This document shows, in pieces, positions 34,498-41,109 of a DNA stretch of 64,000 nt (position 1 is the first letter of the stretch; each line of letters starts with the position of its first letter). The DNA is from Halichondria panicea (taxonomy: Eukaryota; Porifera; Demospongiae; Suberitida; Halichondriidae), in contig NC_087381.1 of assembly GCF_963675165.1 (NCBI RefSeq), positions 2,604,001 through 2,668,000 on the forward strand, given 5' to 3'. Both the position numbers and the translations under genes were made by a program. Below the pieces are notes generated by a model. The model was not told the origin of the DNA. It made no database searches and saw nothing but the letters and a program-made list of their open reading frames with translations.

Positions 34498-37400
34498 TCA
34501 ATAACAGCTAGGTAAGTCACCTTTTTGTTTTTTTGTTGGTGGTCCATTCTCCTCACTCTCTTCAGTCACAGCAGCTGTATATAGCGAGAGTATAGCTGTA
34601 TTGAACCACACTGTATATTTATGATCGTAGTGAGCTTACGTTGTTGTGGCAGAGGCTTTAGGAAGTCAGTAATTTCAGTGTAACCCCGCTGTGTAGCAAT
34701 GTCACGAGGAGTATCGCCATTTTTGTCAGTTGCACCTGAACAAGAATGGTGGTGTAAAGCAAAAGTATAACACTGGGAGCTAGTACTCACTGATATCACA
34801 GTTGGCCTTTTCCACTAAGTACTGCACCACATCTTTGTGTCCCCGAGCGCATGCATTGTGGAGTGGGGTCCTGTTGATATTATCCCTCACATCTGCACAT
34901 ATATATAACACACCATGGTACTATTAGTAAAACCAGTAGGTTTTACATAGGATTGGCAGTGGGTTTGCCCGTGTTTAGCAATATTTCAATTATTTTGACT
35001 CGTGTTCAAACTGTTCTATCTCTGCAGGGAAAGGCCACATCAAGAAACTGGCTGAACAGATAGTTTATTTAGCCTTTTCTCTCTTTGTATCTCTCATTTC
35101 ATAATCCATGAACATTTTAATGAATGAATATTTTCATTTTAAAAATTGCACTATTTCGACGTTTCACCGCTCTTTGTCTGACTGACTAAGTAAGTAAGTG
35201 AGTAAGTAAGTAAGTTTCTTGCCCAGCATTTACTCCAAGTACAGCCATCTCCAGGACATTCTGCACAGGGTTTCCAAACGACTACAACCTGGATTACAAA
35301 GCGCTTCTTCAGATTTGCGATTGCTTCCACGAGGCAGATGACCTCTCAGTCTCTATTTCTCTTACCTAGACAATTCCGCCATCTTTAATGACTCAGCAAT
35401 TGCGTTGTGGCCAATAATAATAGATAGGCGTGGCTAATAAACCGTGTGCCTAAAATCAGTGCAGCAGTGCTTTTCCAGAGCCTGAGGTGTTCCTTTTCTT
35501 CACACTGTTCAGCTCTAGCTCCCTTTCTCTGACAGGCATGCTATATGCACTGGCTAGATATCATGCTCTTAAAATGGCTGTCATTTAATACTGATTCGCA
35601 AATTCAACATAATTATCAAGCAATAAATTATTACTCATTATACTATAATTATTAGTCCAGAGATATTCTAGAAGATATCTGATTAGTCCTGTCTTCTCTT
35701 CTTGTACTGCCTCTTGACGTTCCACTTATGCATGTCATGATACGTAAACTGTACTGAAAAAGAAAGGGAATCCGACTAGAAAAACATTTGCAATGTGAAA
35801 AATTGCTAGGATTGGCCAGGGGAACCACAAAAAAGCGTGGGAACAAGAAATCAGACGAGAGCATAACTCCAATCCGTTACAACGTCATGAACATGTACAA
35901 TACATAGTATATTAAATAATAGACTGTGTTCCAGATCCACCTATCAGCTTCCATCCACCACATCATTCCATGCAGTCACCAGTACGGTCCGTGCATGTTA
36001 CTACGCATGGATGGACTGTGTGTACCTGTGCTCAACACTGCATGTATTAGGAACATCAATTCATCACAAATCATCATGATTATGTGCCCCACATTCTAAA
36101 ATGGATGTATAATAAATATATATAGGGATTGGTCATCACTCCACCAGTAAAAATTGCGTGGCATATTGGCTGGGAAAACATGGGAAAACTACCAGTATAT
36201 ACATGTGATTGACGTTGTAACGGATTGGAGTTATGCTCTCGTCTGATTTCTTGTTCCCACGCTTTTTTGTGGTTCCCCTGGCCAATCCTAGCAATTTTTC
36301 ACATTGCAAATGTTTTTCTAGTCGGATATACATAAGGATTGACAGTGCAAGTGTGTGTTTTCAATTATTGCACACATTTTGACTCGTGTTTAGACTGCTC
36401 TATTCTGCAGGGAAAGGCCACACCAAGAAACACACTGGACTGATAGCTTAGTTAGCCTTTTATCTGTCTAAATGTGTTAAGCATGCATAATAGATTATCA
36501 AACTCACTCTTGGGGTCAACCTTGTCTTGCTCAACCAGTTGTTTCACCACACCCAGCTTGCCCCACCAACATGCTGCACACAGTAACTTGACCTTGTGCT
36601 CATCACCACCACAGCCACGGCTCATTAGGTAGAGAGCAACATCCATGCAACCATCATCCAGACAGCCATACAGGTAGTCAGAATTCAGAGCTATGTTCAG
36701 TGGTGATTGTTCCCAATCATCCGTTACATCTGCAAGACAGTAAATTAGCATGGTTATGAGTGCGACAAACAGTCACAGGGTATACTATAGCCAGTCAGTC
36801 TGTCTGTCGTTCTGTGTATTCTGAGTCTGCTCATCTGGATGCGATAGCACTGTGTTTGTACTATGGATAGCCTCAACACAACAAGGTAGTATAGTTTTAA
36901 ATTTGGCATATTTTGATGTTAAAGCTTCGTTGTCGAATAAAAGCGAACAAAAGCTAAGAAGCTCTAACCTGCACGTTGGTCTAGATGTTTACATGCGGCC
37001 AAATTATAACGCCGAGGTTTGCACTTCAGTGCTCCAGTTGGCACAGTAGTAATTAACTAGTGCCAATAATTATAATTTTAATTTCTAGAAACCATGCAGA
37101 CAGGTTGAGCTTGGACATATAATTATAAAGTCTGTATTGCCACCATAATCAAATACTGGCATTCCTTTTAAAAGCACAGTAGCTAGGTCATCATACTCAC
37201 TCTTGGGGTCAACTTTGTGTTGCTCTATCAGTTCCTTCACCACACCCAGCTTGCCACATCGACTTGCTGCACACAGTAACTTTTCCTCGTGCATACTCCA
37301 TCCACAGCCACGGTTGATCAGGTAGAGGGCAACATCCACACGGCCTTCTTCATTATCGCACTCATGATAATCAGGGCCTAGAGCTTTGTCCAGTGGTAAC

Positions 37401-40400
37401 TGTAACTCATCCTCATCCTCATCTTCTTCATCAAAACCCTCCTCATCGCTCCACATATAGTCTCGTTTGTTCCATTCATTGACAGGCAGTTCTAAAACAC
37501 CCCAAATGTTATCAGACATAGTGTTACCAGAGCTTTATGAATACCATAATTATAGCGAGTAATTCAGGGAGAGGGGGGAGGGGTTAAAACATTCAGAGCA
37601 CTACTTTTGTGGTTGCTACTTGCATCCAGAGCCCAAGGTCAATAGGGTCACTTTTTAACGAAAACAATAATATCTTGTCCTGGATTATTGACCTGGATTA
37701 TTGACCTTAGCTTGGATATAACAGCTATATATACTGCTTCTGTTGTTTTTGATCGTTTATTTGCCTATCCAGCGCATGCAGCAAACCAGTACATCAAAAT
37801 TTATACCATAGCTAAAGAAGGCATATCTTGTAATCTCTTTTCTCTAGCTGGTTCGTCTGGGGCTCAACTGATTTCTGTTGTGATGAAGCTAGTAGTGGTG
37901 AGGGTGAGCTCAGTTATATATGTAAACGTCTGCATAAGGCTACGTGGTGTAAACTATTGACATTGGCGTACCCCTCTGGCTTGGACCCAGATAAAGGTGG
38001 TCAATGATTATAGGCCTTGCCCAATTATGCTCAAAATGTTGCCTATTAACTCATGTTTTTACCTATAATATTATAGTCTTCGATTTTTACAACATTACGG
38101 AATCTTCTACCATAATCTTTTGAGGTACTATTGTTGGTGTTCGGCTGCCTGTAATCGGTGTACTGGAACACTGGACTGGACTGGACTTTGACGCAACACC
38201 ATGCATGCAATTACATTCCTTTTCCTCATCAGTAACAAGACCACAATGACAATACTATAGTAAACATGAAAGCAGCGCGGGTGCTGATGCCTTGGTGTAC
38301 GCATGCAGTATACTAGCACTTCAGTCTATTATTATGCATCGGTGCACATGCGCAAGCAATGTATACGGTGTGTTTTTGAGTCTGTCTGTCTGTCTGTGTG
38401 TGTATAGACTGCTACAGCTGCTCAAGGATCAATGAAGTGCAAGTAAGAGTTTCATAGGCTTTTATAGTCATAGATTCTAATTTGTGGATTTGCAAAATAA
38501 TGCTTCGTTCTCGAGATATGCCTTACTTGGAATGCCATTGCAGCCTTTTTAGAAGAGTGCGTAACAAAACTTGTTCACCGAGTGTTGCTACTCTACTTAG
38601 TAGTTAGCTCTGCACTAGAACGCTAGCTATTGGTAGCTGCAACAGTGAGAAGAGAGCTGCAAGGCTCTGCTGATGGAGCTAGACTTGAACTTTTGGCATA
38701 GATCGTTTTTAACAACAATCGTGGTTGATCATTACCCACTCTTTAATAATAATACAAAAAATATTCATCATGTAGTTTAATGGAGTTAAATAAACGTAGT
38801 TAACGAAGTAATACACTAACCGCGGCCTTACCTCGAATCACACAGTCGTAGGTGTGGCTTCCAGTCACATGCATGCCTATCGCACATGCGCATCCATGGT
38901 TCCACGTGCTAAAGTACAGCCGCTGTCAGCGAGCCACAGACAAATTGGCTGCTCAAATCTTATGCCTCCCACCCTCCCATTCACGGAGGTTAAGACCTAC
39001 TTTCCATCCGACGATGTTGATATACTGGTTGGGGGGCTGAATAAGGGCCCCCAACACTTACGTGCTTAATGCTAATCGCAGGGGCTCCTCTCTCAGTACT
39101 CCCCCAAAACATTACCGCAGTCACGTGACCCCTAACCTCTAGCGTGACAGGGCACGTGACATCTGCTTAGACCGGTACTTCCAAAAGATAGTAATATCCT
39201 CACCTAGGATATGACGCATTCCTAGATCGCAGTCATTTACTACAATCTGTATGACCATAGTTAAATGATATTATGTGTGTAGCTTTATATTATCATTGTT
39301 ATGTAGCTTTGCACCTCCACCGGGCTAGAAGCTTGTGCGTACAAGTTGCTCACTAGATTACCGTTCTATCTACTTCCTTCAATCTACTTCTTTCTGTCTT
39401 GACGTCATTGTTTTACAGAACATTTACGCTGTTATTTGTAGCCTCCAGATACTGGGGTAAGATTGGGGCATGCGCAGGCAGTCGTTACCAAGTAGTGAAC
39501 AGTATATGATACTACAGAGAACATTCAAAGGCACAATAGAATTAACACTCACTTTCGGGGTCAACTTTGTGTTGCTCAACCAGTTCTTTCACTATATCCA
39601 GCTTGCCCCACCAACATGCTGCATGCAGTAAGTTGTCTTTGTCCTTATCACTACCACAGCCACGGCATATCAGGTAGAGGGCAACATCCAAACAGCCTTC
39701 CTTCTCTCGCAGAGTGTCAGGATCCATAGCTATATCCAGTGGGGACTGTCTCTCATCATCCCTCACATCTGTAATTTAACATAATTATAGATAGTCAGTT
39801 ACACGAAATCTGATTTAACACTAGAGCACTAAAGTGCAAACCCTCGGCTGGTGACATGACATGATTATAAAGAAACCATATAATGCAGTGCATGTAGTGA
39901 TGAATATCATGTATGACTTATTAAACTGTCTAGGCAAGCAACTCAGGAAGCTAACCAGACTGGAGGCATGCTGAAACATTTGAGAACAGAGTTTTATATA
40001 CACTGTGGACTAGGATCACAGCAAAGAAGCCTGGAGTCTCATGCATAGAAGTGAAGTAGGATCCCAGAGTCTAGTCTCGAATACCCGCCTCAACCTAAAA
40101 GCTTTTAGGTTGAGGCGGGTATTCAAGACTACCCAGAGTCAGCTAACAGAACTGAACCAGACACAACTGTGATTGAATTCTAAATACTTATCTCACAGAC
40201 TACTGCTTTGAAGGGTTTGCTCCCACTGTTAGGATTGACTGTGGACACCCCTTTCTTGTGAAACAATCAAAGCACATTGCAAATTATTTACCTCTTCAGT
40301 AACACTCTAATACTTTTGAGCGAAAGCAAAAACATGGTGAGAGGCACAAATAGTAACGACTGCTTACCAGTGCTGCAGTTGACCTCCTTGATCAAGTACT

Positions 40401-40782
40401 GCACCACCTCGATATGACCTCCCGAGCATGCCCAGTGAAGTGGAGCTCTGTTAGCCTCCCCACCACCGTCATCAGTAAAACAGGTACAAGCTCCATGGCC
40501 GGATAAATGGGTAACAAGCATCTTTACAATCTCAAGGTGGCCGTCACAACAAGCTCTGTGTAATGGAGGCAACCTTGTTCCCCACTCCTTACTCCAGTAG
40601 AGCTGGTGGTTGGGGCATGCCCCGCATGCCAACAGAGATTTCACTTTCGTGACATATTTGTTACGAACAGCCTGTATTAAGCTCTTGGCTAGCTTTTTCT
40701 TCAGCGTGGCTAGCTTCTCTACCTTGGCTAACTCATAGTTAGAAGAGGAATGCTTACGAGCTGTCTGCTTAGTACGGGCCAT
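34498..40782 (-). CDS. Ankyrin-repeat protein with histone H3 tail-like N-terminus
   Basis: Seven coding exons: 40782-40368, 39768-39553, 37491-37201, 36729-36508, 34892-34791, 34735-34640 and 34574-34498. All six introns are GT-AG and phase 1; the exons sum to 1419 nt, 472 aa. The N-terminus MARTKQTARK equals the start of histone H3, followed by an unrelated lysine-rich stretch (HSSSNYELAKVEKL). Then come ankyrin units (LPPLHRACCDGHLEIVKMLV, APLHWACSGGHIEVVQYL), three diverged copies of a module with DVALYL..RGCG and KLL.AA..WGKL..VK.LVEQ.KVDP, two more ankyrin units, and the C-terminus PPTKKQKGDLPSCY. KKQK could be a nuclear signal. An in-frame ATG at 40815 would add MILLLGAAGTC; I chose the inner one because its second codon is GCC and the H3 match starts there. 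The 3' end assumes read-through of GGTGAC at 34520; a further exon is possible. Function unknown. Confidence 0.7.
35772..36325. repeat. Long inverted repeat in ankyrin-gene intron
   Basis: Arms of 116 bp at 35772-35887 and 36210-36325 are near-perfect reverse complements across a 322-bp loop. They include TGGTTCCCCTGGCCAATCC and TTGTTCCCACGCTTTTTTG. Direct repeats of about 140 bp (34951-35100 and 36333-36475, sharing CTGCAGGGAAAGGCCACA) also occur in this intron. Either an element remnant or local duplication. Confidence 0.8.
38266..38750. mobile_element. Dispersed repeat related to the 26.2-26.8 kb insert
   Basis: Reads GCGGGTGCTGATGCCTTGG at the start. Continues with CTGCTCAAGGATCAATGAAG, AATGCTTCGTTCTCGAGATA and TAGTTAGCTCTGC, which match the reverse complement of the insert at 26214-26760. 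Lies in the 2 kb intron between exons 2 and 3 of the ankyrin gene. No coding capacity. Confidence 0.75.
40073..40132. repeat. Near-perfect 60-bp palindrome
   Basis: Two arms of about 30 bp meet at AAAGCTTTT: AATACCCGCCTCAACCT and its reverse complement AGGTTGAGGCGGGTATT, extended by TAGTCTCG / CAAGACTA. In the first intron of the ankyrin gene. Likely a small foldback element. Confidence 0.85.
40753..40782 (-). other. Histone H3 residues 1-9 identity
   Basis: ATG plus nine codons give M-A-R-T-K-Q-T-A-R-K, identical to the H3 N-terminus through Lys9. The next residue is His instead of Ser10. Removal of the initiator Met is expected before Ala, which would expose the same free Ala1 as in H3 and the Lys4 and Lys9 positions that chromatin readers and writers recognise. 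Confidence 0.85.
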
Positions 40783-40837
40783 GCATGTGCCTGCCGCGCC
40801 AAGCAAGAGGATCATGAGAGATGGATCATGAGGAAGA

Positions 40838-40918
40838 GACTAGCCTCGAATCCAAAGCAGCCAAAAGCTTAGCCTCCATTCTAGGCCGATTAAATGCGGC
40901 CATGAATCGAGGCTACCA
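40838..40918. mobile_element. Small foldback repeat beginning AGCCTCGAATCC
   Basis: TAGCCTCGAATCC at one end and GAATCGAGGCTA at the other form a hairpin of about 75 bp just upstream of the ankyrin gene. Related fragments occur near 42264-42292 and 54247-54275. Confidence 0.6.
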
Positions 40919-41109
40919 AAACAAAAGAGTGCCATTAATGGGTGTGGCTTTGCAACGACCCGGCGCGCGCCGAGGTTGGACACGTCACGTGCAACAAAAT
41001 TACTTTACGCTTCCAGATGCCGTAGAGGGATAGTTTTAGTTGCTGTAGTGAGCTAGCTCAGGTTAAAATAATTGTCTCGCTGGTGGATGCAATGAATGAT
41101 ACAAGCCCT

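Follow-up and report, generated by a model that had tools for sequence, protein, structure and literature searches.

A candidate endogenous mimic of the histone H3 tail at the predicted N-terminus of a sponge ankyrin-repeat protein

Introduction

Can a protein that is not a histone begin with an exact copy of the histone H3 tail, and does such a start reflect mimicry of H3 or a coincidence? The question is raised by a locus on the minus strand of the 64,000-nucleotide stretch of Halichondria panicea DNA analysed here (the window), in which positions 40782-40753 read ATG GCC CGT ACT AAG CAG ACA GCT CGT AAG, that is, M-A-R-T-K-Q-T-A-R-K. These ten codons (40753..40782) are identical to histone H3 residues 1-9 after the methionine, just as the original prediction had read them. 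We describe the window gene as a candidate for an endogenous mimic of the H3 tail, carried on an ankyrin scaffold; that it functionally mimics the H3 N-terminus is a reading that we advance tentatively, with a little less than even confidence. The genome searched comprises 131 Mb in 39 contigs.

Results and discussion

The minus-strand sequence from 40782, ATGGCCCGTACTAAGCAGACAGCTCGTAAG, encodes M-ARTKQTARK and continues in frame through HSSSNYELAKVEKLATLKKKLAKSLIQAV and ankyrin repeats. The protein would start M-ARTKQTARK-HSSSNYELAK and run on into the ankyrin domain, with a predicted N-terminal peptide ARTKQTARKHSSS (comparison peptide VRTKQTVRRHSSS). Identity to H3 ends at residue 9; position 10 is His, where H3 has Ser, and it is this residue of the predicted peptide ARTKQTARKHSSSNYELAK that distinguishes the window protein from H3.

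Seven exons can be joined with AG/GT borders, all six junctions being in phase 1, to give an open frame of 472 residues; the model is a predicted structure derived from splice borders and the open frame. Exon 1 (40368..40782; 415 bases) holds a new N-terminal module and the first ankyrin repeats and ends at the donor CACTG/gtaagc, with 40368 as its last base. It is followed on the same strand by exon 2 (39553..39768; DVRDDERQSPLDIA...), placed by splice borders and open frame only, by exon 3 (37201..37491), which contains an acidic stretch (SDEEGFDEEDEDEDEL) and has the least certain acceptor, by three ankyrin exons (exon 4, 36508..36729; exon 5, 34791..34892; exon 6, 34640..34735) and by exon 7 (34498..34574), which supplies the C-terminus TEESEENGPPTKKQKGDLPSCY and the stop codon and has a possible further donor (AAAAG/gtgact). 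In the joined frame Ank_2 scores 162.6 bits against a Pfam cut-off of 27.3, in five stretches, and exon 1 alone also gives ankyrin families (maximum E of 0.01). No histone fold was found after the tail in either search, ankyrin families being the only Pfam matches (maximum E of 0.01 for exon 1 and 0.001 for the full frame), which agrees with the proposal that a non-histone ankyrin gene lies behind the H3-like start. Rfam and tRNA scans of the window gave no hits.

The protein ends in EENGPPTKKQKGDLPSCY, where the KKQK noted earlier as a possible nuclear signal is present as PPTKKQK. A search of the genome with the C-terminus (E up to 10) gave six matches including the window gene; of the five others, three have an E of 9e-4 and a single in-frame TAG apiece, and two are weak (0.05-0.06).

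The ankyrin exon belongs to a large family: with 150 of 1143 candidates scored, at least 152 places in the genome match it at E up to 0.01. Many of the listed matches sit on contig C1 between 0.06 and 2.65 Mb; most of the best members there are 63-71% identical to the window exon, with a common donor site and a related C-terminal motif. An acceptor-like stretch, mostly TATTTTGTACAG/TGCTCAAAAGAAGCTAGCC, precedes the ankyrin exon in 16 aligned family loci. About 250 bases further upstream lies a putative tiny first exon, ATGGCTGAACAAGATTCAGG/GTGAGT, whose columns are conserved at 0.77-0.87 across 11 aligned loci. In the two of these 11 loci in which it was read, it encodes M-A-E-Q-D-S or M-A-T-E-Q-D-D-S, with no H3-like residues. 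Typical members thus seem, from these alignments, to start from a separate tiny exon. The window gene, in contrast, is without the family's first intron: a module of 28 codons (40699..40782, minus strand, delimited by alignment with the family) runs continuously into the ankyrin exon, up to the family segment KKLAKSL, and appears to stand in place of the very short first exon and the intron that typical members have. The original prediction had also pointed to a weak later echo of H3 (KLATLKKKLAKS). The family explains it better, since KKLAKSL aligns with the family's KKLAEDL.

In a set of 5.8 billion proteins the exon query found 14 proteins among 83 candidates, itself included, and the module was absent from the 13 others. 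Residues 1-48 matched only themselves among nine candidates in the same set, in which animals are poorly covered; it yielded no orthologue. The ankyrin exon seems to be hypervariable at a few positions. Among ten copies (loci L005-L010, L013, L014, L017 and L020 of the genome, nine on C1 and one on C15), pN exceeds pS in 29 of 45 pairs; in 13 columns with at least four residues mean pN is 0.49 against a pS of 0.18, a figure inflated by the choice of these columns for their variability, and in the remaining columns the values are 0.033 and 0.065. An immune or conflict role for the family is a guess; a literature search on sponge ankyrin expansions, judged by title, found no sponge-genome work.

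How rare is the H3-like start? With assumed residue frequencies, an exact ARTKQTARK start has a probability of ~9e-12 per protein start, or 2e-7 for an assumed 25,000 genes, in line with the original judgement that chance is an unlikely source. A looser pattern, ATGGNNMGNACNAARCARACN (M-[A/V/G/D/E]-RTKQT, admitting only second codons that begin with G), occurs eight times in the genome, in three H3 genes, the window gene and four decayed copies discussed below; the reversed pattern does not occur in it. The back-translated ten-codon pattern was found in nine contigs of a prokaryote collection of about 257 Gb and in no viral contig. Seven of the nine encode H3, one across an apparent intron and one cut by the contig end; all seven (L065, L066 and L068-L072) are filed as bacterial and presumably represent eukaryote DNA in the bins. 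The other two carry short MARTKQTARK frames (28 and 19 residues) that do not continue as H3; these, in a Bacillota MAG (L064) and an Alphaproteobacteria MAG (L067), are probably chance frames. Two non-H3 matches in about 257 Gb correspond to roughly 0.001 for this genome, counting any ATG. At the sequence level the H3-like start is real, and chance would yield it only very rarely.

Other copies of the module were sought by a DNA search with 40960-40640, which gave at least 62 matches (40 of 58 candidates scored). Six places carry the module: the window, four near-identical copies (C2:4746476, C2:4640823, C2:2677791 and C1:8218534) and C1:4174016. The four copies read MVRTKQTVRRHSSSSMS, that is, MVRTKQTVRR and then a stop, and the fifth lacks ~11 bases after the ATG, followed by QTVRRHSSSNYE and a stop; each of the five has stops, frameshifts or deletions. 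A protein search for the module (E up to 10) found only the window and C1:4174033 and missed the four frameshifted copies. The remaining DNA matches are either a 41-base piece of the ankyrin exon or a short palindromic repeat just upstream of the gene (40864..40923) that occurs at many other places in the genome; a repeat of the same type, TAGCCTCGAATCC...GGATTCGAGGCTA, lies at 40072-40131 in intron 1. The four near-identical copies are embedded in a longer repeat, 98.5-99.7% alike. This repeat, of about 2 kb (L029-L032 and L063), carries a decayed 5' piece of the window's ankyrin gene, with a second piece further on in two copies, joined in L031 to a piece of exon 4.

Three recent paralogues (C8:3778516, C2:4627537 and C2:2652261) are about 96% identical to the window from 40680, a match that extends down to at least 37164-38068, as far as sequence was fetched, and that continues in L023 at 93%. 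Their intron 1 differs from that of the window by 1.0-1.2% substitutions, and the module is absent from them within the fetched stretches. The module differs by about 12% from the four near-identical copies and is therefore older than the recent duplicates. All five broken copies, the four in the repeat and C1:4174016, have a T (AATCTAGCC) at a site that mostly reads AAGCTAGCC in the wider family and the window, which would place them in one lineage. Val at H3 position 7 and Arg at position 9 may have arisen in that lineage, or Ala and Lys on the window's line, no outgroup having the module. Exact H3 identity is found at one locus, and the broken state of the five paralogous copies, which read V-RTKQT-V-R-R or are partly deleted, weakens any case for long conservation; the exact match could be recent. 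This polarity is the main weakness of the mimic reading.

It is here that coincidence has to be weighed, in the sense of a new coding module that came to match H3 by chance and has no role in chromatin. Three single transitions (V to A twice and R to K) could have led there from an ancestor close to MVRTKQTVRR. The VRTKQTVRR of the decayed copies fits such a route, a match of at least six of nine residues to H3 1-9 has an expectation of 0.08 among 25,000 genes, the prokaryote collection supplied two chance ten-codon matches and the module bears no trace of H3 DNA. Against this, the expectation of the full nine-residue match is so low (2e-7 per genome) that, although the many genomes and motifs that might have been noticed raise it, it is still small, and coincidence becomes much less likely if the ancestor already read ARTKQTARK. 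We regard chance as a live possibility that falls short of the probable.

The original prediction had offered capture of an H3 5' coding end as one origin. In the genome we identified three H3 genes and a fourth, divergent one. The module matches the three genes at 24, 22 and 23 of 30 bases, whereas random synonymous codons give 23.0 (s.d. 1.6; P of 0.36, 0.83 and 0.61), and its alignment to the H3 gene L048 ends at codon 10, with nothing beyond aligning. Because DNA identity is at the level of random codons, even for the best gene (24/30), and stops at codon 10, recent capture from H3 DNA is unsupported and we reject it. Capture long ago, with selection on the protein and change at silent sites, concerns origin and may be compatible with mimicry. 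All six base differences from the nearest H3 gene are silent, and the module-H3 coding alignment is reached by only 0-15 of 500 shuffles, as the protein identity itself requires. The same random-codon level and the lack of alignment past codon 10 count against an old event as well, as do tests with H3 5'UTRs, five of six of which were unremarkable (reached by at least 73 of 500 shuffles; the sixth by 10 of 500). An old capture appears improbable.

An origin of the module in DNA upstream of family members was also tried and rejected: 13 of 14 local-alignment tests were unremarkable, and the remaining one (L019, one scoring) was equalled in 17 of 500 shuffles. A 10-base exact repeat (AAGCTAGCCA) is no more than suggestive of growth of the module from the KKLA unit, since 154 and 328 of 5000 codon shuffles, and 16 and 17 of 5000 base shuffles, do as well.

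Both exon 1 and the joined exons have an open frame, and an intact gene of this kind beside five broken siblings suggests that it is in use. When evolution without selection was simulated in 20,000 runs with one indel per ten substitutions, the frame of exon 1 survived in 4.8% at 6% divergence and in 0.6% at 10%; without indels it did so in 30% and 14%. The dN/dS of the ankyrin part is 0.50-0.85 against ten relatives (of 12 loci tried, L011 and L016 were left out because their start or donor motif could not be located). Taken at the level of the whole exon or ankyrin part, to which these tests refer, rather than of the nine H3-like codons, there is moderate evidence that the window gene works.

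A working gene might still never expose the H3-like peptide, if translation began upstream or if the module were untranslated and, as elsewhere in the family, an unseen exon further upstream were spliced to the ankyrin exon. The upstream in-frame ATG foreseen by the original prediction is indeed present (40813..40815, minus strand) and would give MILLLGAAGTC-MARTK.... Typical members have a small separate first exon with an acceptor before the ankyrin exon, the three recent paralogues have no module, and CTTAATACAG/GCTG within exon 1 could act as an acceptor. However, the phase of that acceptor in the window gene's frame is 0, as against 2 for the exon-1 donor of the family as we read the alignments; the ATG at 40782 has G at +4 and that at 40815 has A, neither context being strong; and non-coding DNA would by coincidence have to match nine H3 codons immediately behind an ATG. 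Non-exposure is, on balance, unlikely. In an AlphaFold2 model of exon 1 (138 residues, aligned with 13 relatives; mean pLDDT 81.6) helix pairs follow one N-terminal helix that spans residues 2-41, with a mean pLDDT of 59 over the first ten residues. The predicted fold argues, as weak evidence, against a plainly free tail, none of the 13 relatives covering the module.

Functional mimicry would proceed as follows. An ankyrin-family member would have gained a new first coding stretch in place of the usual family start, translated from the ATG at 40782. The initiator methionine is removed when alanine follows, so that the mature protein would begin with H3 residues 1-9. Nuclear entry might occur through PPTKKQK, and the free tail would most likely be bound by one or more readers of the H3 N-terminus, such as PHD-finger, WDR5-like, LSD1-like or BIR proteins (BIR domains give six matches in the genome, three of these in one frame). 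The partner of the ankyrin domain would thereby be brought to these readers, or the readers would be held off chromatin. Because residue 10 is His rather than the Ser of H3, readers of the H3K4 type are likelier than those of the H3K9 type, and ARKS-type recognition is probably less likely than recognition of ARTKQT.

In favour of mimicry stand a nine-residue match to H3 that is exact, lies right at the N-terminus and would seldom arise by chance, the open seven-exon frame beside broken module copies, and a C-terminal basic motif also present at related loci; against it stand the VRTKQTVRR of the other module copies, the helix predicted for the N-terminus and the competing ATG at 40815. The fullest form of the proposal, in which an ankyrin protein with a processed, exact H3 1-9 N-terminus and no detectable capture of H3 DNA serves in the nucleus as the animal's own decoy or bait for H3 N-terminus readers, within a fast-evolving and perhaps immune family, is conceivable but doubtful.

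Comparison with known H3 look-alikes

In the literature searched, from which most subscription papers fall outside, no H3-like start on an ankyrin protein was found; judging by abstracts, the string MARTKQTARK appears there in connection with antimicrobial histone peptides, extracellular histones and EZHIP. SNAG peptides have few residues in common with H3. The closest parallels are non-histone proteins that engage H3-tail machinery. According to PMC9253516, processing leaves Sgo1 with an N-terminal Ala, and the BIR domain of Survivin binds this end as it does the H3 tail. Sgo1 is thus like the window protein in being a non-histone protein for which a processed Ala N-terminus and H3-tail-like binding are in question, but it shares only the type of tetrapeptide (Ala-Lys-Glu-Arg), whereas the window protein has nine identical residues on an ankyrin scaffold and its binding is a prediction. 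EZHIP (CXORF67), described in PMC6513997 as a K27M-like inhibitor of PRC2, is an endogenous non-histone copy of an H3 stretch; it differs in that the copied region is that around K27, lies near the C-terminus and has a demonstrated target, the stretch in the window protein being N-terminal and its targets predicted. In the SNAG-domain repressors SNAI1 and GFI1 it is, as in the window protein, an N-terminal peptide that is concerned: it occupies the H3-tail site of LSD1, and PMC5896174 describes SNAG as a mimic of the H3 tail.

As far as these sources describe them, such look-alikes show that non-histone proteins can engage Survivin (Sgo1), PRC2 (EZHIP) and LSD1 (SNAG). All three copy short or internal stretches of H3, whereas the window protein has the exact 1-9 tail. 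If the mimicry reading is true, the window protein would compete naturally for readers and erasers of H3K4 and could be recognised by antibodies to the H3 N-terminus, and the gene would illustrate how an unrelated scaffold can acquire a chromatin peptide.
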